DNA from: Dokdonella fugitiva
GTDB lineage: Bacteria > Pseudomonadota > Gammaproteobacteria > Xanthomonadales > Rhodanobacteraceae
Assembly: GCF_014138265.1 (NCBI RefSeq)
Contig: NZ_JACGXL010000001.1
Span: 1,000,525 to 1,064,524, forward strand
DNA length: 64,000 nucleotides
Reading direction: 5' to 3'
A model generated the notes under the pieces. The model ran no database searches. It was not told the DNA's origin and saw only the letters and a list, made by a program, of their open reading frames with translations. The translations under genes and the position numbers were made by a program. Below are positions 659 to 11,462 of the stretch, one piece after another; the first letter of the stretch is position 1, and each line of letters opens with the position of its first letter.

Positions 659-1084
659 CTAACCCAGCAACGCCGAGAGACGTTTCGTTAGCCTGGCTAC
701 TGAAGCCTCGCGCATCGTGTCGCATTCCCAAATCACGAACACCCGAAAACCAAGCGCACGCAGCTGGCGTATTACACGATGATCACGCTTCACGTTCGCA
801 TCGAACTTGGCTTCCCAAAACGAGCGATTCGTCTTCGGCGTCGTGGTTCTGTTGCACCCGACATGGCGGTGCCAGAAACAACCATGCACAAAGACCGCGA
901 ACCGCCGGCGACGATTGGCCAGGTCCGGAGATCCCGGCAGATCGGTATTGTCGAGAGAATAGCGAAGCCCCAAAGAGGAGACCAATCGCCGCACTACGCG
1001 CTCGGGCGCTGTGTCCGTACGTCTCACACGCGCCATATGACTCGATCGATCCGCTGTCGTGAACAAGCGACGGCGACCGATCAT
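659..1084 (-). CDS. vsr: Very short patch repair (Vsr) DNA mismatch endonuclease, intact copy
   Basis: Vsr nicks DNA 5' of the T in T:G mismatches that arise when 5-methylcytosine deaminates, starting very short patch repair. It therefore usually accompanies a cytosine-C5 methyltransferase, as here. Hallmarks visible: 'DTAPERVVRR', 'LPGSPDLA' with the catalytic Asp, and 'HGCFWHRHVGC' with the two active-site His and zinc Cys, followed by 'SFWEAKFDANVKRD' and the C-terminal 'VIWECD'. The ATG at 1084 gives 141 residues, the usual family length, and has AAGGGCGG upstream. Two more ATGs (1114, 1129) would add 10-15 residues. It lies about 50 bases after the methyltransferase stop and is probably co-transcribed with it. 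Confidence 0.9.
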   Translation of the reverse strand: MIGRRRLFTTADRSSHMARVRRTDTAPERVVRRLVSSLGLRYSLDNTDLPGSPDLANRRRRFAVFVHGCFWHRHVGCNRTTTPKTNRSFWEAKFDANVKRDHRVIRQLRALGFRVFVIWECDTMREASVARLTKRLSALLG

Positions 1085-1137
1085 CTGTCCGCCCTTGAAC
1101 GCTTGTTCGACCATAGCCGCCCGGTGCATTCGACTTG

Positions 1138-2385
1138 CTACAGAGCGGATATCGATTCGAGGTGCTTTTCCACAGCTTTGATGAAACCCGGTGGAAAGTT
1201 CAACTTCGCGACACGCGTACGACTCAAAAAACCGCTGGTTGCCTTCGGCGACAACAGCGTCGTCTTGTACGAAAGAAATTCGTCGAGACGGCGCGAGGCC
1301 TTCCGTAGGGGCCATTCCGACGCCGCCACCGTGAGGCGGCCGTCACCCACGTTCCAAGCGGCGCTGGGCCAATAGCGATGACCTCGCATCGGAGCCACGT
1401 CGAAGTCGAGAAGCTTGCCCGGTTTGCGCATGCGTCGACCGATCCACGCCGCCGCAGGCACGCTCACTGCGTTGCCGACGAGTTTCCAGCGGGAACCCTT
1501 CTTCGCAACGGATTCGGCCGCCTTGGTCCAGCCCGCAGGAAACCCCTGGAAGCGCTCGCCATCGCGAATATCGGGGGTAACGAGTCGGCCGTCGGGCAGC
1601 CAGATCGCCGGCGGCGACGGAATGCCGATGGTCGAACCGCCCTTCAGCGTGGGGATCGCATCGACGGCCCAACCGAGGCCGCGCAGTCCTTCGGTCCAAT
1701 AAAAGCCGCAAGCCACAGGATGACCATTGAGCACGGGTTCTGGCGGAGCACCTGCGTCGTCCGCGAAGAGAATATGACGCGGATCGCCCTCCAGGCTCGC
1801 CAACAAGTAGACACGCCGGCGTCTTTGCGGCAAACCGAACGCACGCGAATCGACGACGCGATACGCCCACTTGTAGCCCAGCTCTTCGAGACGCTCTGTG
1901 ATGACGTTCATCGCTTCGCCGCGCCCGAGCTGAAGCATGAAGGGTACATTTTCGAGGAGCACCCACGGCGTCCGATTCGCCTCGATCAGGCGGAACACTT
2001 CCCCGACTAAACCGGATCGCGCCCCTGCAATACCGCGCGTGGCACCAGCCTGTGACAAGTCTTGGCATGGAAACCCTGCCACGACGAGCGAGGTCTTCTT
2101 CGGGAGCGAACGAAGCGTCCGGACGTCGTCGTGAAGCTGCACATCCGGAAATCGATCGCCGAGAACGGCCATCGCCGCCAGATCGTTCTCACAGAACAGC
2201 AGCGTTTCATGGCCCGCGCGACTCAAGCCCCGCTCGACTCCGCCTATCCCGGCGAACAAGCCGACGACGCGATGCCGGATACCCTCCGGCGCTCGCATGC
2301 GACCACGCGCAGCCGACTGCCTTCTCAAATCAAGATCAAGTTGCCCGTACGGTCGCAATGCACCTGCGTCGATCGAGCGGTTCAT
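1138..2385 (-). CDS. DNA (cytosine-5-)-methyltransferase of a type II system
   Basis: Transfers a methyl group from S-adenosylmethionine to C5 of a cytosine in a specific DNA sequence. Motif I 'FAGIGG' is at residues 44-49, motif IV 'PCQDLSQAG' carries the catalytic Cys at about 107, motif VI 'ENV' is at 145-147, motif VIII is 'QRRRRVYLLAS', and motif X is near 'GNAVSVPAA'. The target-recognition region lies between VIII and X. About 80 residues follow motif X, a C-terminal extension ending in a basic/hydrophobic helix-like tail. 415 residues. The ATG overlaps the stop of the upstream ribbon-helix-helix gene by 4 bases (translational coupling). Vsr follows and a PD-(D/E)xK-like protein is divergent, so a restriction-modification role fits better than an orphan Dcm. 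Target sequence unknown. Confidence 0.93.
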   Translation of the reverse strand: MNRSIDAGALRPYGQLDLDLRRQSAARGRMRAPEGIRHRVVGLFAGIGGVERGLSRAGHETLLFCENDLAAMAVLGDRFPDVQLHDDVRTLRSLPKKTSLVVAGFPCQDLSQAGATRGIAGARSGLVGEVFRLIEANRTPWVLLENVPFMLQLGRGEAMNVITERLEELGYKWAYRVVDSRAFGLPQRRRRVYLLASLEGDPRHILFADDAGAPPEPVLNGHPVACGFYWTEGLRGLGWAVDAIPTLKGGSTIGIPSPPAIWLPDGRLVTPDIRDGERFQGFPAGWTKAAESVAKKGSRWKLVGNAVSVPAAAWIGRRMRKPGKLLDFDVAPMRGHRYWPSAAWNVGDGRLTVAASEWPLRKASRRLDEFLSYKTTLLSPKATSGFLSRTRVAKLNFPPGFIKAVEKHLESISAL

Positions 2386-2588
2386 TCTTCACCTCGCGGC
2401 TTCGCCAAAAGCGGCCACTGCTCGACCACATAGCGCTCGGCCGCTTCGCGCACGACCCACGCTAGCGATACCTTCTTGGCCGCAGCGATGCGCTCCAACT
2501 CGGCATAGACTTCTGCGGGGAAGCTCACCGACGCCCGGGTCGATTCGCTGCCGATCCTAGGTTTGGCGATAGATCTGTCCGAGGCCAT
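2382..2588 (-). CDS. Ribbon-helix-helix (CopG/Arc-like) small DNA-binding protein
   Basis: A 68-residue protein with the RHH pattern: a strand 'TRASVSFPAEVYAEL' leading to helix A, then 'ERIAAAKKVSLAWVVREAAERYV' as turn and helix B. RHH dimers insert a two-stranded sheet into the major groove and are often autorepressors. The ATG at 2588 has a CGGAG-type ribosome binding site; a GTG 13 codons upstream lies inside the predicted promoter and is unlikely. Its stop overlaps the methyltransferase start (ATGA). An inverted repeat sits in its own promoter, so autoregulation is likely. Given the position, it may take the role of a C (controller) protein for the restriction genes. It could also act as an antitoxin, but no toxin-like gene is adjacent. 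Confidence 0.8.
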   Translation of the reverse strand: MASDRSIAKPRIGSESTRASVSFPAEVYAELERIAAAKKVSLAWVVREAAERYVVEQWPLLAKPRGEE

Positions 2589-2609
2589 GATGTCCCGCTC
2601 CGGAGTGGC

Positions 2610-2644
2610 TGCACCACAATACACCACTCTGGTGCAATCAACAA
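2610..2644 (-). promoter_or_regulatory. Predicted promoter with embedded palindromic operator for the RHH-methyltransferase-vsr operon
   Basis: Read on the minus strand, TTGTTG (2644-2639) is a -35 and TATTGT (2621-2616) a -10, with exactly 17 bases between. The spacer contains a perfect inverted repeat CACCA-CTC-TGGTG (2622-2634). A wider pair, TGCACCA (2610-2616) and TGGTGCA (2630-2636), is also inverted, so three half-sites of the same word overlap the promoter. A protein bound here would block RNA polymerase. The RHH gene starts about 22 bases downstream and the divergent nuclease candidate starts on the other side, so both could be controlled from this site. Seen directly: the repeats and spacing. 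Inferred: promoter activity and the RHH protein as ligand. Confidence 0.65.
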
Positions 2645-2713
2645 TCAGAGCGGGCCTCCCATGCCTAACCCCTTGTTTTGTCGTTAGTTTCAGGCAGAAT
2701 CACTCCCAACTAC

Positions 2714-3595
2714 ATGCTTAATGTGCCTATGTCATTCGGACTGCAGATCCTCGTTAGATCGCTGAGCACCCCCAACTCGGGCGCCGGAAAGGGCTATGCA
2801 TACGGGAACAAGTGGCAGTACCACCCCCGATCGGATCGGCACTCCAAGATTCTTTGCTGGGGCATCGCCTTCGACCTGCTTCTCCGCGACAACCTCATCC
2901 GCCGGCACATTCGCGACGAGAAGACGAGCTTCGGCATCAACCACACGATGGTCGACTTCACGAATAAGCGGAGGAAGGACCTCGACCTCGTCATATGCCA
3001 GCGCGGTACCCCAGTCAGCGGGAAAGCGGTGGCGAGCTTCGCCGACATGGTTGATGCCTACGAGATCGAGCTGTCGCAAGAAGAAGAAAAGCTTCTCCGA
3101 CAGCTTCCGGCCATACCCCACACAGGCGTGCGATCGGCTCTGCTTGCGCTGGAAGCAAAAGCGGCCATGACGGAATTCGGCAAGGCGCGCCCAAGGCTTT
3201 ACGACGAACTGAATAGCTCACATCAAGCCATTCACGGCGATACGGAAGCAGCCATCGCGGGCGGGTTTGCTCTCATCAACACCGCGTCCAGCTTCGTGTC
3301 TCCATTGAGAAATCACTGGAAGATCGGTGAGCGTAAAACCGACGTGACCAAACTAAAACAGCCCGACGAAGCGCTGAAAACGGTCCAAAAAGTCGAACAA
3401 CTTCCGCGCCGAGCAAGCATTGGCGGGCATGGCTTCGATTCATTCGGGATAGGGATGATCGAGTGCTTCAATGATGGCAGGCCGATTCGGCTCGTTAGTG
3501 ATGCGCTCTCCCCTCCAGCTGGCAGCCCATTCCACTACGATGCATTCATCGAACGAATCGAAACGATTTACGCCACGCGATTCGCTGGAATCTAG
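2714..3595 (+). CDS. Probable type II restriction endonuclease (PD-(D/E)xK-like), partner of the methyltransferase
   Basis: I do not recognise a named family. The sequence has the layout of a PD-(D/E)xK nuclease core: 'KDLDLVICQRG' (Asp at about 89 and 91, followed by a hydrophobic strand) and, about 55 residues later, 'LLALEAKAAMTEFGKARPRL' with Glu147-x-Lys149 and a following basic helix. 'LYDELNSSHQAIHG' after it looks conserved in style. About 293 residues. The start is uncertain: ATG 2714 is used; ATG 2729 and TTG 2678 are in frame, and none has a strong ribosome binding site. It is divergent from the RHH-methyltransferase-vsr operon with the palindromic operator between. Nuclease function and partnership with the methyltransferase are inference from motif and context. 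Confidence 0.65.
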   Translation: MLNVPMSFGLQILVRSLSTPNSGAGKGYAYGNKWQYHPRSDRHSKILCWGIAFDLLLRDNLIRRHIRDEKTSFGINHTMVDFTNKRRKDLDLVICQRGTPVSGKAVASFADMVDAYEIELSQEEEKLLRQLPAIPHTGVRSALLALEAKAAMTEFGKARPRLYDELNSSHQAIHGDTEAAIAGGFALINTASSFVSPLRNHWKIGERKTDVTKLKQPDEALKTVQKVEQLPRRASIGGHGFDSFGIGMIECFNDGRPIRLVSDALSPPAGSPFHYDAFIERIETIYATRFAGI

Positions 3596-4140: not shown

Positions 4141-4235
4141 ATCTCTTTCCAGCGACGTGGCGCGCATCATTGACGGCCCACTGGTCTACACGCAACGGGG
4201 CCTGAGACAGCCGGCGATAAGGCACTCTGGCCCCG

Positions 4236-4532
4236 TTAGTTATCACGTTCGTCATTTTCCGAGAACTTCTGCGCCCAAAACTCTACGTTTGACCTGGGCG
4301 TGGACGCTCTAGAACAGCCAGTGTGTCGATGCCAAAAGCAACCATGAACAAATACCACAAGCCGATGGCGCGCCAAAACGATATCGGGGCGACCAGGCAG
4401 GTCGATACTGTGTAAGCGAAAACGCGCGCCAAGCGAATGAAACAGTATTCTGACAACAATTTCAGGCTTCGATCCTTTTTGACGCACGGAGCGCATCAGG
4501 GCGCTCCTTCGCTCAACGGTCAGCTTGTCCAT
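4236..4532 (-). pseudogene. Truncated second Vsr endonuclease
   Basis: The N-terminal two thirds of a Vsr protein are clear: 'LTVERRSALMRSVRQKGSKPE', 'LPGRPDIVLARHR' with the catalytic Asp, 'HGCFWHRHTGC' with the His and zinc Cys residues, and 'NVEFWAQKFSEN'. The frame then stops after 98 residues. The intact copy at 659-1084 has about 40 more residues, ending in the conserved 'WECD' region, and none of the frames downstream of this stop restores it. The ATG at 4532 fits the family N-terminus; a second ATG at 4550 is 8 bases after the ATPase stop. It is the third gene of a minus-strand group with the ATPase and the Mrr-like protein. Either a decaying gene or a shortened protein of unknown competence. 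Confidence 0.75.
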
Positions 4533-4557
4533 CAAACCATACCATCTCAATGCTGGA

Positions 4558-6207
4558 TCAGATACCCAGCAAGCTTCTAATCCTACCTTTAATATTCTCG
4601 TACTTTAACCTGAGGTGCGCTTTCCCATTCTTTGTCAGCAGCCCCGTATGCCCAACGACGTTCCGAACGGGTGCGTAGGCAATCGCGTCGTCACACAAAG
4701 ACTGCTTTCCACCTCGGTCCTTCTTCCCTTCCACGGTTAACGCCAGCTCATCCATTCCAAGATAGCCAAGATCGTCTTCACCCTGACGAATGGAGAAACT
4801 GAGATTGGCCTTCCCCTTCTTGTCGGCCTCCCGCTGTCGCCATTTGGCTGCCTCAGATTTGACGCCTTCCTTTAGTTGGATATTTTTTTCCTTTATGAAC
4901 CTACGCACTAGATTCTCAGAAAGAAAGCAATCGGCATACGACGAGAGGTTGAACTCGGCGTCGTCCCGCAGCTTATCAAGCCAAGCTGCTACCTGATCGG
5001 ATTCTTCGCTCTCGGAATCGGACTCATAGTCCTCACGCGAGGCCGCGTACAAATCCAGAGCCTTCCTTTCCTTCTTTGATTTCCTGGGATTATCCTCATC
5101 GCCCTCTTCGCCACGCTTCAGGCGATACTTATCCCACATATCAAAGATGCGCGGGAACGCCTCACCTTTCAGATATGCAAGCAGTTCTTTGAAATCCACA
5201 TCGTCATCTACGATGCCTTCGCGGCTGCTGGTGAATGGATCCTTGCCAAGACCATCCATCACGTCGAAATGAACTTGACCGTACAAATAGCTCTCGACAA
5301 TCCGCTGGGTTGGTATGTGCCTGAGGATGTTCCTTTCGCGCAAACGGCCATTGACGAACAAGTCTACGGTAGCTCGCTCGTCTGTACCTACAATTTTCAA
5401 GTTTCTAGGTTTCTGGACTGACGAAATGAAGCCGCGAACATCCAATGCAGCCGTCATCGCAAAAGCCTTATGCCGAAGATTCCCGAATCCAGATACAAAT
5501 TCGTCTTCGTAGCCATTGATGCACCATACAAATTCCGTAGCGTCCAGCAGATCCTTCAGGTCATTGACAGTAACCTTATCGCCGTTGACGTGAATAGTGA
5601 AACTTTCATCTATTAGACTGAAACGAAAGCTCATCGCCAGCATTTTTTTAATGTGCGCAACTGAGTTTCTGATCTGCTCTTTTGCATCCTCGAAAACAAT
5701 AATTGTACCGTGCTTATGCTTGTTGCTAAGTTCGGCAACAAGGGTCGGATCGAACGGCTCTAGAGGGTACTTTTCCGGAGTGAGATCACTAGTGATAGCC
5801 TCATCAAGGCCAGCATTATCAATCACGCCGCCGACGTAGTCCCCTCCGCGCTTCTTTGTAAATATCGATATCCTGCGAGCACAAGAAAGTAGCGCTAGCT
5901 TACCGATCCCTTTCGCTCCAATGAATGGTCGGTTTCTTGGGGTCGCGATTCTGCCTTTGGCACGCTTCGAATAGCCAATTTTAAGAAATCTGTTTTGGAA
6001 ATCGTCCTCATCCATACCGACCCCATCGTCCTTGATGCTGAAGGTTCGGCTTTCCCTATCGATGGAAATCCAAACATTCTTGGCGTCGGCGTCCCATGAG
6101 TTGGAGATCGCTTCGCCGAGAACCGTAATGAAATTTCGATACAGATTTCTCCCCAGATGGTTCAGCACGCTGAGAGAAATTGCGAACTTGAATGATTTTT
6201 TTCGCAC
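4558..6207 (-). CDS. GHKL (Hsp90/MORC-like) ATPase of a defence island
   Basis: The N-terminal ATPase domain has all Bergerat-fold boxes: N box 'GEAISNSWDADAKNVWI' (Glu32, Asn36), 'IKDDGVGM' at about 59-65, and 'GAKGIGKLALLS' at 97-108. A transducer-like middle part follows, then a highly charged linker ('KSKKERKALD', 'SDSESEESD') and a Lys-rich C-terminal half. Such ATPases act as ATP-driven clamps; MORC-type members are known next to Dcm, Vsr and nuclease genes in defence loci. The GTG at 6207 gives 549 residues, is preceded by GAGGG and lies 24 bases after the Mrr-like gene's stop. The frame remains open upstream but is then only a shadow of that gene. Codons and base composition are clearly more AT-rich than the flanks, suggesting transfer. 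Confidence 0.85.
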   Translation of the reverse strand: MRKKSFKFAISLSVLNHLGRNLYRNFITVLGEAISNSWDADAKNVWISIDRESRTFSIKDDGVGMDEDDFQNRFLKIGYSKRAKGRIATPRNRPFIGAKGIGKLALLSCARRISIFTKKRGGDYVGGVIDNAGLDEAITSDLTPEKYPLEPFDPTLVAELSNKHKHGTIIVFEDAKEQIRNSVAHIKKMLAMSFRFSLIDESFTIHVNGDKVTVNDLKDLLDATEFVWCINGYEDEFVSGFGNLRHKAFAMTAALDVRGFISSVQKPRNLKIVGTDERATVDLFVNGRLRERNILRHIPTQRIVESYLYGQVHFDVMDGLGKDPFTSSREGIVDDDVDFKELLAYLKGEAFPRIFDMWDKYRLKRGEEGDEDNPRKSKKERKALDLYAASREDYESDSESEESDQVAAWLDKLRDDAEFNLSSYADCFLSENLVRRFIKEKNIQLKEGVKSEAAKWRQREADKKGKANLSFSIRQGEDDLGYLGMDELALTVEGKKDRGGKQSLCDDAIAYAPVRNVVGHTGLLTKNGKAHLRLKYENIKGRIRSLLGI

Positions 6208-6230
6208 GCCAGTTGCCCTCGCTGCACTGA

Positions 6231-7382
6231 TTACTCGGACTGCTGCCCCTTGAATAACGCCCTCACCTCCGGCGCCACCACATCCACCTGCCGCTTCCGC
6301 TGAAATAACGCCCTCTGCCCCTCCGCCAACTGGCAATTGCGCGACAGCGTCGTCGCGCCGTCGGCGTGTTGGGCGGTGATGTCCTGGACGTTGACGACGA
6401 CGGCAAGTGTGTCGCCGAGGGGTTCGAGCGCGAGGCAGACGTCGTCGATCATCGCCATCGAGCGGTGGTCGGCACCGTCGACCATCACGACGAAGTTGTC
6501 GTGGTCGAGCCAGAGCGCGCTGCGTACGCCCGAGACGTTCTTCGCCGCCATGCGCGCGGCTTCGTGGTCGATGGGGCGTCGCGTGTCGGGGATGCCCGCT
6601 TCGCGCAGATACGTCGTTGTTGCGCGCTCCATGGGTTCGGAGACCGCGCGCAGGCGGCCGGATCGTTCTGGGGTATGCGTGGGCGTCGCGGGTGCGGTGT
6701 TGGGGATTGTTGGGTAAGGCGCCGGCGCGAGCGACCCTTCCCGCGTCCGCGCAGGCGCGCGCGTGGTCGGGCTCGTCGTGACGGATCGCAGCGGAAGGAC
6801 TACGAAGGCAAGAAACGCAATCAGTGCCACCGCGGCGGCTATAGCGCCGACGGACGCACCTTGGCCCGTGGGCGAACGTGGCGCCGAAGCCCGATCGGTG
6901 CCTCGTTGCGTGAAGACGTGCGTCCAATCATCTGTCCCGGCGGAGCCGCCCGATGGTTCTCGAGCCGCTTCCGCTTCGAGCGCAGCGAGGTCGATCCATC
7001 GGCGCACCATTTCGCCATCGACGAGTTGCACGCTCGGCTGTCGGCTCGCGGCGACGAGGGCGGCGTGGGTGAATTCACCGCAGGTCACGAGGACGGCGCC
7101 GGTCGCGTGCTCGGTGAGCATCACGCCGATCAACTCGTGCACGTCGTTGTGCGGGACCTGTTTCGCGGTCCAACGCTTGCATTGCACGACCACGTACGCG
7201 TCGCCGCGACGAAGCTTCAGATCGATGCCGCCGTCGTACTTTCGCCCGGTCGCTTCGGCGCCGACGCGGTCGACGGACCAGCCTTCGGCGCGGTAGTGAT
7301 CGGCGATGAGCGCTTCGAAGCGCGTGGCATCGACGCGCGACAACGCATCGTTCCAGCGCGTGCGGTTGGGTTTCAGCGGCAT
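6231..7382 (-). CDS. Mrr-type restriction endonuclease domain protein with membrane anchor
   Basis: The first ~130 residues form an Mrr-like PD-(D/E)xK nuclease: 'FEALIADHYRAEGW', 'KYDGGIDLKL' with the catalytic Asp at about 54, and 'YVVVQCKRW' with the Q-x-K motif at 67-69. Such domains cleave modified or foreign DNA. A single hydrophobic segment ('AIAAAVALIAFLAFVVLPL', about 180-200) follows, then a Pro/Thr-rich linker and a C-terminal alpha/beta region of unknown role that would lie on the other side of the membrane. 383 residues from ATG 7382; an upstream TTG (7499) is in frame but unlikely. It heads a group with the GHKL ATPase and the truncated vsr. GC content is high, unlike the ATPase, so the two may have different histories. 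Confidence 0.82.
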   Translation of the reverse strand: MPLKPNRTRWNDALSRVDATRFEALIADHYRAEGWSVDRVGAEATGRKYDGGIDLKLRRGDAYVVVQCKRWTAKQVPHNDVHELIGVMLTEHATGAVLVTCGEFTHAALVAASRQPSVQLVDGEMVRRWIDLAALEAEAAREPSGGSAGTDDWTHVFTQRGTDRASAPRSPTGQGASVGAIAAAVALIAFLAFVVLPLRSVTTSPTTRAPARTREGSLAPAPYPTIPNTAPATPTHTPERSGRLRAVSEPMERATTTYLREAGIPDTRRPIDHEAARMAAKNVSGVRSALWLDHDNFVVMVDGADHRSMAMIDDVCLALEPLGDTLAVVVNVQDITAQHADGATTLSRNCQLAEGQRALFQRKRQVDVVAPEVRALFKGQQSE

Positions 7383-7526
7383 GCGACGGCCTGCATCTGC
7401 AGGACGCACGACGGTACTGCAGCGGCGGCCATGGGCCGCGGCGCCCCTTCCTTCCCCATCTTCGCCCCCTGTGGCGTCGATAGGTGGAGTAAGCAACAAT
7501 GGGAGTCTGCGATCAACCCTGCCGGT

Positions 7527-7664: not shown

Positions 7665-10600
7665 TTACATGTTGCGGCGATATTCGCCGCCGACGTCGTA
7701 CAGCGCGTGGCTGATCTGGCCCAGGCTGTGCGTTCTCACCGCCTCGATCAGCGCCGCGAACACGTTCTTGCGGTTGCGGGCGGTGTCCTGCAGGTAGGCG
7801 AGGCCGTGGCCGTCGTGGACGACGTCGGCTTCCTCGTCGCTGCCGGCGGTGTGGGCGTGCGAGGTCTCGCCGCTCGGCGCGAGCGCGTTGCGGTTCTGCT
7901 GGTAGGCGCGCACGTTGGCGATCTGCTGGCCCTTCTCTTCTTCCGTGCTGCGGATCAGTTCGATCTCGGTGACGATGTCGCCCGCGTGTTCCTTCGGCAG
8001 GAAGGTGTTGACGCCGACGAGCGGCAGGCTGCCGTCGTGCTTCTTGTGTTCGTAGTAGAGGCTTTCTTCCTGGATCTTGCCGCGCTGGTACATCGTGTCC
8101 ATCGCGCCGAGAACGCCGCCGCGCTCGCTGATCGCTTCGAATTCCTTGTAGACGGCTTCCTCGACGAGGTCGGTGAGCTTGTCGACGATGAAGCTGCCCT
8201 GCCAGGGGTTCTCGCAGAAGTTGAGGCCGAGTTCCTTGTTGATGATCATCTGGATCGCGACCGCGCGGCGCACGCTTTCTTCGGTCGGCGTGGTGATCGC
8301 TTCGTCGTAGGCGTTGGTGTGCAGCGAGTTGCAGTTGTCGAACAACGCGTACAACGCCTGCAAGGTGGTGCGGATGTCGTTGAACTGGATCTCCTGCGCG
8401 TGCAGGGAACGGCCGCTGGTCTGGATGTGGTACTTCATCATCTGGCTGCGCTCGTTGGCGCCGTAGCGCTCGCGCATCGCGCGCGCCCAGATGCGGCGGG
8501 CGACGCGGCCGATGACGGTGTATTCCGGGTCCATGCCGTTGGAGAAGAAGAACGACAGGTTCGGCGCGAAGTCGTCGATCTTCATGCCGCGCGCGAGGTA
8601 GTACTCGACGATCGTGAAGCCGTTCGACAGCGTGAACGCGAGCTGCGAGATCGGGTTCGCGCCGGCTTCGGCGATGTGGTAGCCGGAAATCGACACCGAA
8701 TAGAAGTTGCGCACCTTCTGGTCGACGAAGTACTGCTGGATGTCGCCCATCATGCGCAGCGCGAATTCGGTCGAGAAGATGCAGGTGTTCTGCGCCTGGT
8801 CTTCCTTCAGGATGTCCGCCTGCACGGTGCCGCGCACGGTCGATAGCGTGTAGGCCTTGATGCGCGCGTAGGTTTGCGCATCGACGACCTGGTCGCCGGT
8901 GACGCCGAGCAGGCCGAGGCCGAGGCCGTTGTTGGTCGGCGGCAGGTCGCCGTGGTAGCGCGGACGATCGCGGCCTTCGAACAACTTGGCGATCACCTTC
9001 TCGGCCGCGGCCCAGCGCGCGGGATCTTCCTTGAGGTGCTTCTCGACCTGCTGGTCGATCGCGGTGTTCATGAACATCGCGAGGATGATCGGCGCGGGGC
9101 CGTTGATCGTCATCGAGACGGACGTGGTCGGCGCGCAGAGGTCGAAGCCGGAATACAGCTTCTTCATGTCGTCGAGCGTCGGCACGTTGACGCCGGAGTT
9201 GCCGATCTTGCCGTAGATGTCCGGGCGCGGCGCGGGGTCTTCGCCGTACAGCGTGACGCTGTCGAACGCGGTCGACAGGCGCGCGGCGGGCAGGCCCTGG
9301 CTCAGGTAATGGAAGCGGCGGTTGGTGCGCTCGGGCGTGCCCTCGCCCGCGAACATGCGGATCGGATCCTCGCCGCTGCGGCGGTACGGATACACGCCGC
9401 CCGTGTACGGGTAGTAGCCGGGCAGGTTTTCCTTCTGCAAGAACGTGAGCAGCTCGCCCCAGCTCTTGTAGGTGGGCGCGGCGATCTTGGGGATCTTCTG
9501 GTGCGAGAGCGATTCGCGGTAGTTCTCGACGCGGATGGTCTTGCCGCGCACTTCGTATTCGGTGATCTCGTCGACGATCGACTTCAGGCGCTGCGGCCAT
9601 TCGCGCAGCAGCTTCTGCGCGTCGGACGAGAGCGACTGCACCGCGTCGTTGTAGCGCTGGCGCAGGGTGACGAGCGAGCGGTCGACGGTCGGCGCGGACG
9701 TGGTCGGCTGGCTCGAAGCCGCGTGCGCGCGCTGTTCCTCTTCCTCGCGGCGCAGCTCCCAGTTGAACTTCTGCTTGCGGCGGTCGCCGTTGCTGGTGCG
9801 GCGCTCGCCGCACGCGGGGAAATCGGCCGAGGACGAATCGCGCGGGACGTAGAGATCGTCGGCGTCGTAGAGGTCGAGCGCCTTCGGCAGCTTCGGGTCC
9901 TCCAGGTCGCGCAGCGCCTGCCAGTACGACTGCGCACGGTCGGCGACGTCGGACTGCTTCTCGATCGTGCCGTTGATGCCGCGACCCTGCTCGGCGATCT
10001 CGGCGAGGTAGCGCACGCGGCTGCCGGGGATGAGGACGGTCGCACGCGGCTCCTTCAGCGAGGTGTCGAAGTGCGGGGTCCAGTCGATGCGGCTGGTGGC
10101 GTCGCTCTTGCTTCCTGTGGGAGCGGCGGAAGCCGCGATGCTTTTCTGATCCGGGGAAGAGAGCATCGCGGCTTCCGCCGCTCCCACAGAAGCCGTGCCG
10201 AGATGGAGCTTGGTGCGCAGCAGGCGGCACAGGTTCGTGAACATCCAGGTCACGCCCGGATCGTTGAACTGGCTCGCGATGGTCGGGTAGACCGGGATGT
10301 CGTCGTCCTTGAGCTGGAACGCGACGCGGTTGCGCTTCCACTGCTTGCGCACGTCGCGTAGCGCGTCTTCGGCGCCGCGCTTGTCGAACTTGTTGAGCAC
10401 GACGAGTTCGGCGAAGTCGAGCATGTCGATCTTCTCGAGCTGGCTCGCGGCGCCGTAGTCGCTAGTCATCACGTACATCGGGAAGTCGACGAGGTCGACG
10501 ATCTCCGAATCGCTCTGGCCGATGCCGGCGGTTTCGACGATGACGAGGTCGTAGCCCTGCCCCTTGAGGAACGCGATGCAGTCCTTGAGCATCGCGCTGG

Positions 10601-11462
10601 TCGCGACGTGCTGGCGACGCGTCGCCATCGAGCGCATGAACACGCGATGGCTGCGCAGCGAGTTCATGCGGATGCGGTCGCCGAGGAGCGCGCCGCCGGA
10701 GCGGCGGCGCGTCGGGTCGACCGCGAGCACGGCGATGCGCATCTGCCCGAAGGCCTGCAGGAAGCGCAGCATTAGCTCGTCGACGACCGACGACTTGCCC
10801 GCGCCGCCGGTGCCGGTGATGCCGATGACCGGCGTGCGGCCGCCGGCGAGCTGCCATTCCTTGCGCAGGCGGTCGAGCACGAGCTCGTCGTGGCGGCCTT
10901 CCTCGATCGCGGTGAGCGCGTGGCCGACCGCGATCTCGTCGTCGATCGACACCTGCGCGGGCGGCACCGCGTCGTTGCCTTCGGCCGCGACGCGCGCGGC
11001 CTGTGCGTCGCGCGTGCGCTTGATCACGTCTTCGATCATCGCGACGAGACCCATGTGCATGCCGTCGTTCGGATGGTAGATGCGCTCGACGCCGTAGGCC
11101 TGCAGCTCGCGGATTTCCTCCGGCGTGATCGTGCCGCCGCCGCCGCCGAACACGCGGATGTGGCTGGCGCCGCGCTCCTTCAGCATGTCGACCATGTACT
11201 TGAAGTACTCGACGTGGCCGCCCTGGTAGCTCGACAGCGCGATCGCGTCGGCGTCCTCCTGCAGCGCGGCGCGCACGACGTCCTCGACCGACCGGTTGTG
11301 GCCGAGGTGGACGACCTCCGCACCCTGCGCCTGGATCAGCCGGCGCATGATGTTGATCGCGGCGTCGTGGCCGTCGAACAGGCTGGCTGCGGTGACGAAC
11401 CGCAGCGGTGCCTGCTCGGCCGAGGCGTCGTGGAGGGGAAGAGTCCGGGCGGTCGTGCTCAT
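7665..11462 (-). CDS. icmF: Fused isobutyryl-CoA mutase
   Basis: Adenosylcobalamin enzyme that interconverts isobutyryl-CoA and n-butyryl-CoA (some members also act on isovaleryl/pivalyl-CoA). The three-part fusion is clear. The B12-binding domain has 'FDGHDA' (His32 as lower ligand). A MeaB-like G-protein chaperone domain has P-loop '[12 protein letters not shown]' (214-225), 'ETAGIGQSD' and 'NKFD' (357-360). The large TIM-barrel mutase domain follows. 1265 residues, somewhat longer than the ~1090-1100 I expect for the family. One extra piece (about residues 426-449) is encoded by an in-frame REP-like element. Single gene on the minus strand, ATG 11462. It would connect valine/leucine carbon to butyryl-CoA metabolism alongside Ldh and Ivd. 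Substrate choice cannot be read with certainty. Confidence 0.95.
10116..10188. repeat. REP-like element, family A, inside the icmF coding sequence
   Basis: Inverted repeat with arms TGTGGGAGCGGCGGAAGCCG... and its complement ...CGGCTTCCGCCGCTCCCACA around a short unpaired centre. Almost the same unit occurs at 12652, 15305 and 17963 between genes. Here it lies within icmF and is translated without a stop as an Ala-rich segment, '[20 protein letters not shown]'-like, in the linker between the G domain and the mutase domain. Confidence 0.9.

Follow-up and report, generated by a model that had tools for sequence, protein, structure and literature searches.

Can a ribbon-helix-helix (RHH) protein take the place that a helix-turn-helix C protein holds at the head of a restriction-modification (R-M) operon? 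The question is raised by a locus in a 64,000-nucleotide stretch of Dokdonella fugitiva DNA (contig NZ_JACGXL010000001.1, positions 1,000,525 to 1,064,524; here called the window, in whose numbering positions are given), where a small RHH gene precedes the genes for a C5-cytosine DNA methyltransferase (M) and a very-short-patch repair (Vsr) endonuclease (V) and is divergent from a putative restriction endonuclease gene (R; Table 1). It is the controller that decides whether a cell survives the arrival of a new R-M system. The initial annotation had proposed an RHH controller in the position of a C protein and had framed the four genes as a unit. The comparisons described below uphold the first part of this proposal, since the gene stands in the place of a C-protein gene and a predicted operator over its promoter is conserved far beyond chance; the four-gene framing had to be given up. 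The RHH protein is very probably a dedicated autorepressor of a DNA-modification operon, an analogue of the C proteins built on another fold, and would move together with its operator as a module. Autorepression appears to be its most likely function, given the fold, the leading position in the operon and a site repeated across the putative -10 element.

The genes were found where the initial annotation had located them: the RHH stop and M start codons overlap in an ATGA (2385-2382), vsr follows, and an open reading frame (ORF) lies divergently. Also present is the inverted repeat CACCA-GAG-TGGTG (2634-2622), which sits within the 17-nt spacer separating the hexamers TTGTTG and TATTGT on the minus strand. 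This palindrome turned out to form just part of a 27-base element composed of three heptamers in the order reverse-forward-forward. Describing the hexamers as a good promoter overstates their strength, as they match the sigma-70 consensus in 3/6 and 4/6 positions, respectively. A candidate extended -10 sequence, TGG-TGTATT (2626-2618, minus strand), fits better.

Relatives of the RHH protein were sought by similarity and found, counting the window's own, in 7 of 233 genomes of the family, 8 of 328 of the order, 6 of 369 of the class and 10 of 398 of the phylum. Plasmid searches returned 24, 42 and 36 records, largely overlapping, from which 17 matches spread over organisms were taken; searches of viral contigs returned 20 and 8 loci, with one contig of the second search being new, and no RHH match was found in INPHARED phage records. 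A total of 63 loci (designated by L numbers) were scored with one RHH profile. The 50 loci scoring at least 37 bits were counted as members of the family, 41 of which remained after dereplication (<85% core identity). The other 13 (L050-L060, L068 and L069; at most 33 bits) encode other RHH proteins and were excluded from the counts. The members comprise the window, locus L017 (met first through R and again through RHH) and 48 loci identified through RHH similarity alone.

The first large ORF of the adjoining cassette was analyzed with Pfam in 49 of the 50 members. It encodes a DNA methyltransferase in 45 (PF00145, PF07669/PF02384, PF01555, PF02086 or PF05063), an SNF2 helicase in three (L067, L110 and L111) and a PAPS_reduct protein, annotated as dndC, in one (L072). 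A vsr gene intervenes between RHH and M in L025 and L045. In the remaining member, L077 (Xanthomonas plasmid, 4144-5928), the methyltransferase seems interrupted, there being no long methyltransferase ORF between RHH and a PstI-like R gene. Known restriction genes are found farther along some cassettes, including a BsuBI/PstI gene in L031 and an EcoO109I-like gene (PF14511) in L041. EcoO109I is a C-protein system; in contrast, its relative in L041 (L041:6601-7689, on a viral contig) stands inside an RHH-led cassette. The SNF2 helicase genes that follow RHH in L067, L110 and L111 encode 940 aa. In L072 (3968-5534, Aureimonas plasmid), the RHH relative, accompanied by TGATGCA direct repeats, lies immediately before the dndC gene of a phosphorothioation cluster. 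As controls, the 30 loci with the best general RHH_1 matches in 61 relatives were used; two proved to be family members, leaving 28 unrelated RHH genes. Only one of the latter has a DNA methylase gene next to it (PF02384), as against 45 of the 49 members, while three are followed by a ParE toxin gene and the others by unrelated families.

Assignment of the window protein to the RHH superfamily (CopG/Arc/MetJ) is based on both profile matches and predicted fold. The RHH_5 score, 27.3 bits, is barely over the Pfam cut-off of 26, and a profile match to 6iya has an E value of 1.3e-4. The structure model predicts an extended stretch followed by two helices, and RHH proteins match it best in Foldseek, although none of these reaches E 0.001 (the top match, again 6iya, has a probability of 1.00 but an E value of 0.04). 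Pfam, model and fold matches thus agree on an RHH protein and not on the helix-turn-helix that characterizes C proteins. Structure 6iya is the RHH antitoxin CopASO and, with ParE genes adjoining three of the control RHH genes, one might suppose that the window protein belongs, as antitoxin, to a toxin-antitoxin pair lying beside R-M genes by chance. Such a role is most improbable. No antitoxin model reached its cut-off with the window RHH protein (BrnA, 13.2 bits versus 60), and the operon partner, rather than the toxin gene that type II antitoxins go with, is a C5 methyltransferase gene. Likewise, the next gene in all 49 members analyzed is a modification or helicase gene (after vsr in two), not a toxin gene.

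Conservation of the operator was assessed in the regions upstream of the RHH genes. A de novo search, given no site beforehand, recovered from the 41 dereplicated regions a 17-base motif, TGGTGTAAaGTGGTGCA, with a log-likelihood ratio of 365; 12 dinucleotide shuffles, run with somewhat fewer starts, yielded 69.7 to 79.3. In leave-one-out trials on the 24 members with a profile score of at least 80, each model being built from the other 23, the held-out site outranked every other position of its locus, counting both strands, in 24 of 24 cases with a 24-base model and in 22 of 24 with a 17-base model (L046 and L070 ranked second). The heptamer TG[AGC]TG[CT]A, mostly in 10-bp spacing, occurs 60 times in these 24 regions compared to a mean of 6.1 and a maximum of 14 in 200 shuffles, and 29 times in the 17 lower-scoring regions (shuffle mean 4.4, maximum 11). 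Upstream of the 28 unrelated control RHH genes, the operator score never exceeded -1.9; the two family members in the control set scored 33.6 and 25.1. In the 4.77-Mb genome, the 17-base pattern of the window operator has a single match with 0 mismatches, the window's own; two further matches each have 3 mismatches, and a reversed control likewise gave two within 3. Gene content and linkage, as well as the conservation, position and exclusivity of the operator, are direct observations, and they bear on the simplest alternative, namely that the grouping of RHH, M, V and R and the palindrome are chance neighbors with no regulatory meaning. That RHH genes are common, and that R-M relatives occur without them, might seem to speak for this alternative; yet operator statistics and linkage far exceed the controls. 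Chance is contradicted by the motif, held-out and control-neighbor results alike and retains virtually no credibility.

In four lower-scoring members (L120, L121, L109 and L116), half-sites of the same kind are inverted, 10 bp apart, as though a single half-site code could serve in different geometries. An apparent covariation of the RHH strand with the central half-site base (Fisher p 0.009-0.016, kinship ignored and L026 misparsed) was not used as evidence.

The two spacers of the operator behave differently: the first (columns 4-6) is free in sequence, whereas the second (columns 14-16) is conserved. We read the latter as a probable -10 element, TGG-TGTAAW, embedded in the operator. An ATG codon lies 18-27 nt past the operator in 22 of the 24 members. 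From these features we infer the following scheme for the autorepressor. RHH dimers would bind the TGGTGYA half-sites, which recur with each turn of the helix over the -10 region of the promoter from which RHH, M and (where present) V are transcribed. RNA polymerase would be excluded while the protein is bound. On entry into a naive cell, devoid of repressor, the operon would give a burst of methyltransferase (and Vsr) synthesis; subsequent accumulation of RHH protein would throttle the promoter to a low steady level. The RHH gene and its operator would travel as a single regulatory module and become joined to unrelated modification systems.

Comparison of closely related RHH proteins is in line with such exchange. 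The RHH cores of L042 and L031 are 83% identical but precede an N6_N4-type and an Eco57I-type methyltransferase, respectively; the window and L114 cores share 72% identity, and the cassette of L114 carries an Eco57I-type enzyme. On a tree of the RHH proteins (46 columns, little branch support), cassette class changes 14 times, with a minimum of 6 and a shuffled mean of 18.5; the only use made of this tree is to suggest that cassette classes cluster and also switch. These data are relevant to the idea that the RHH protein is not a regulator at all, but assists the modification enzyme, either as a subunit that binds DNA or as a partner for targeting, in the manner of DndE in the Dnd machinery. 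Translational coupling to M would suit such a partner, and so would the position before dndC in L072, given that DndE contains RHH domains (PMC10853773). Nonetheless, closely similar RHH proteins precede unrelated enzymes, and a conserved sequence at near-fixed distance over a promoter befits a regulator rather than a subunit. Furthermore, DndE, which is described as part of the sulfuration machinery, has two RHH repeats (PMC10853773), the window protein one. We consider a subunit role very unlikely.

The window M protein, besides its Pfam match, is recognized by the PADLOC model MTase_II (PDLC03324, E 1e-147), and V by PF03852 (E 1e-24) and TIGR00632 (122 bits), both scored on the longer ORF 659-1315. 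The R ORF appears to carry a PD-(D/E)xK-like signature; its sole PDB sequence match is weak (E 0.96), no match up to E 1 was found in Pfam, NCBIfam or PADLOC, and Foldseek gave no close match, from which a new fold does not follow. In 8 of 9 loci (the exception being L016), R homologues have homologues of M and Vsr next to them, a count that leaves out a marginal match, L004, and an archaeal match (H3). Because of this association, M, R and V very likely make up a type II R-M system, with R linked to M, by its location, as the putative cognate restriction gene. In L017, identity to the window counterparts is 81% for RHH, 77% for M and 63% for V, while R (2714-3595 in the window, L017:5482-6303) is only 34-35% identical and in the opposite orientation. 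Next to a stable RHH-M-V group, R has apparently been replaced or else diverges very rapidly. A large gene, which we take to resemble a fused acyl-CoA mutase, flanks the R-M locus in both cases (window 7665-11462 and L017:1617-5150; 80% identical); its occurrence in two genera suggests a preferred insertion slot for defense genes.

As the window operator lies between RHH-M-V and R, the RHH protein could also act on R, either directly or by relieving promoter interference; this is the least certain step of the scheme. It would make the RHH protein resemble a true C protein, repressing RHH-M while activating or freeing a divergent R promoter, so that M is made first and R later. Both activities have been described for C proteins (PMC12707154), and the operator lies 77 nt before the R ATG. 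Against this stands the finding that, among the 50 members (R being identified in a minority of them), the divergent layout was met only in the window: R lies upstream on the same strand in L017 and behind M, within the operon, in L031. Neither is a clear R promoter apparent on the plus strand. A switch of this type, which extends the autorepressor reading and does not exclude it, therefore seems unlikely.

Several points weigh against an RHH autorepressor with a conserved operator. A sigma-70 consensus scan found no promoter in the interval 2300-2900. The models used in the held-out trials were seeded with a consensus known beforehand, and some of the members are close kin (L030, L033). Lower-scoring members contain half-sites in other arrangements or just one, and L048 has none. 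The 37-bit threshold for membership was chosen post hoc, and some of the 17 plasmid matches were selected with neighbor annotation in view. Three cassettes open with an SNF2 helicase gene, making the label "methyltransferase controller" incomplete. The operon of L017 does not include R, and a single operator was found in that locus; thus direct control of R by RHH is not general. Twelve loci with M and/or R relatives (L005-L016) yielded no RHH homologue in one blastp search with the window RHH protein, and their best operator score anywhere is at most 8.4, compared to 15-38 for held-out member sites. It follows that RHH, dcm, vsr and nuclease genes do not form the conserved unit that the initial annotation envisaged, a notion rejected because R and M relatives occur without RHH, a finding of the very sort that the initial annotation had named as refuting. 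As for the CACCA/TGGTG palindrome, whose conservation between such loci had been put forward as a check, the operator of which it forms part is kept before RHH homologues, and no comparable site was seen in the RHH-less loci. The conserved unit is the RHH gene with its operator, which recurs before unrelated modification systems.

Pattern scans are subject to similar reservations. The strict pattern TGRTGTAAWRTGSTGCA has three matches in the 233 family genomes (G021, G059 and G063; reversed control, one), each with its start 73-81 bases upstream of the RHH match in an RHH-methyltransferase pair; this pattern was drawn partly from the same three loci, and it misses 4 of the 7 RHH-carrying family genomes, so that the informative part of the scan is the absence of matches elsewhere. 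Of four matches to the operator pattern in viral contigs, one (L062, on the same contig as L041) precedes an RHH-methyltransferase pair; the other three (L061, L063 and L064) are not accompanied by an ORF matching the RHH profile. The strict pattern alone is therefore not diagnostic in so large a collection.

CopG and Arc are RHH repressors involved in plasmid copy number and phage control. They share with the window protein the RHH fold and the nature of small repressors, as do omega and PaaR; omega binds repeats in its own promoter, but the setting of omega and PaaR is that of toxin-antitoxin systems, with no R-M role described for them in the available text (PMC3874152), whereas the RHH genes studied here head modification systems. 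The C proteins of type II R-M systems such as PvuII, Esp1396I and Kpn2I (PMC3874152, PMC12707154) have in common with the present case a small gene at the head of the operon, an operator in its own promoter (here, as judged from sequence and position) and predicted autogenous control. They are helix-turn-helix proteins, unlike the window protein, whose half-sites are in 10-bp register and whose family is associated with many methyltransferase classes. As far as the accessible portions of the reviews go, C proteins are described as helix-turn-helix; the review of 2013 brings up RHH for no proteins other than the toxin-antitoxin regulators omega and PaaR (PMC3874152), and the term ribbon-helix-helix is absent from that of 2025 (PMC12707154).

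Nearest in logic is RptR (PMC12255303, NAR 2025), also described as a small R-M repressor encoded at the head of the operon, acting at direct repeats over the -10 box and conserved together with its site across bacteria. RptR is alpha-helical and helix-turn-helix-like, has 79 aa, recognizes TAGCTA and is associated mainly with type I systems (54 of 117 homologues). In the present family, the half-site is TGGTGYA and the partners are C5, Eco57I-type, N6_N4, D12 and MT-A70 methyltransferases, dnd and helicase cassettes. No TAGCTA occurs in the interval 2570-2740, and the window protein is RHH by profile and fold rather than all-alpha, a comparison in which RptR is represented by its description and not its sequence. 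BrxR/CapW regulators of the BREX and CBASS systems are likewise associated with several kinds of defense, including R-M, but combine a winged helix with a ligand-sensing WYL domain (PMC12255303, PMC9122588). Other reports, to the extent that their text was available, mention an RHH domain in a Cas13d regulator (PMC9122588) and a CopG/RHH protein of unstated role among the defense genes of archaeal elements (PMC6563490); RHH and restriction terms co-occur in papers on ParG (PMC3346939) and on viral anti-defense proteins (PMC11065993). No RHH controller of an R-M system was found among the papers listed by literature searches, subscription journals and REBASE being outside their reach. We rate as new the combination, in a predicted R-M controller, of a different fold, an operator code of its own and an unusually broad set of partners.

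Since operators are nearly identical among systems, cross-regulation may be expected between those that share the controller. It seems conceivable, although we would put the chances at somewhat less than even, that the RHH gene and its operator-promoter constitute a portable control cassette for unrelated DNA-modification defenses (counting C5, several N6A/N4C classes, MT-A70, dnd sulfuration and SNF2-helicase systems), and that this defines incompatibility or tolerance groups. If so, a resident RHH protein would act as a repressor on the promoter of any newly entering system, and such groups would cut across restriction specificities and even modification chemistries. The predicted controller in itself adds a second fold with its own DNA code, the same protein-operator pair heading systems that share no enzyme. 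Its operator is a brief sequence by which systems of this kind can be traced, among them an R family for which Pfam, NCBIfam and PADLOC have no model, and cross-regulation among unrelated defenses becomes directly testable.

Table 1. Features of the RHH-led R-M locus, in window coordinates.
Feature	Coordinates	Strand	Remarks
V, very-short-patch repair (Vsr) endonuclease gene	659..1114	-	last in the RHH-M-V run; ATG at 1114
M, C5-cytosine DNA methyltransferase gene, 415 aa	1138..2385	-	PF00145, E 3e-46
RHH controller gene (predicted), 68 aa	2382..2588	-	ATG start; RHH_5/RHH_1 in Pfam
Predicted operator, TGCACCA-GAG-TGGTGTA-TTG-TGGTGCA	2610..2636	-	three half-sites in 10-bp register; RHH ATG 21 nt on
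Promoter-like hexamers, TTGTTG (2644-2639) and TATTGT (2621-2616)	2616..2644	-	17-nt spacer; weak relative to sigma-70 consensus
R, putative cognate restriction endonuclease gene, 293 aa	2714..3595	+	divergent from RHH-M-V

A second defense cluster adjoins R in the window (4236-7499). It includes a short Vsr ORF of 104 aa that matches positions 1-98 of 119, a GHKL ATPase resembling the BbrUII/HgiDII restriction family, with a score under the cut-off of that model, and an Mrr_cat nuclease.

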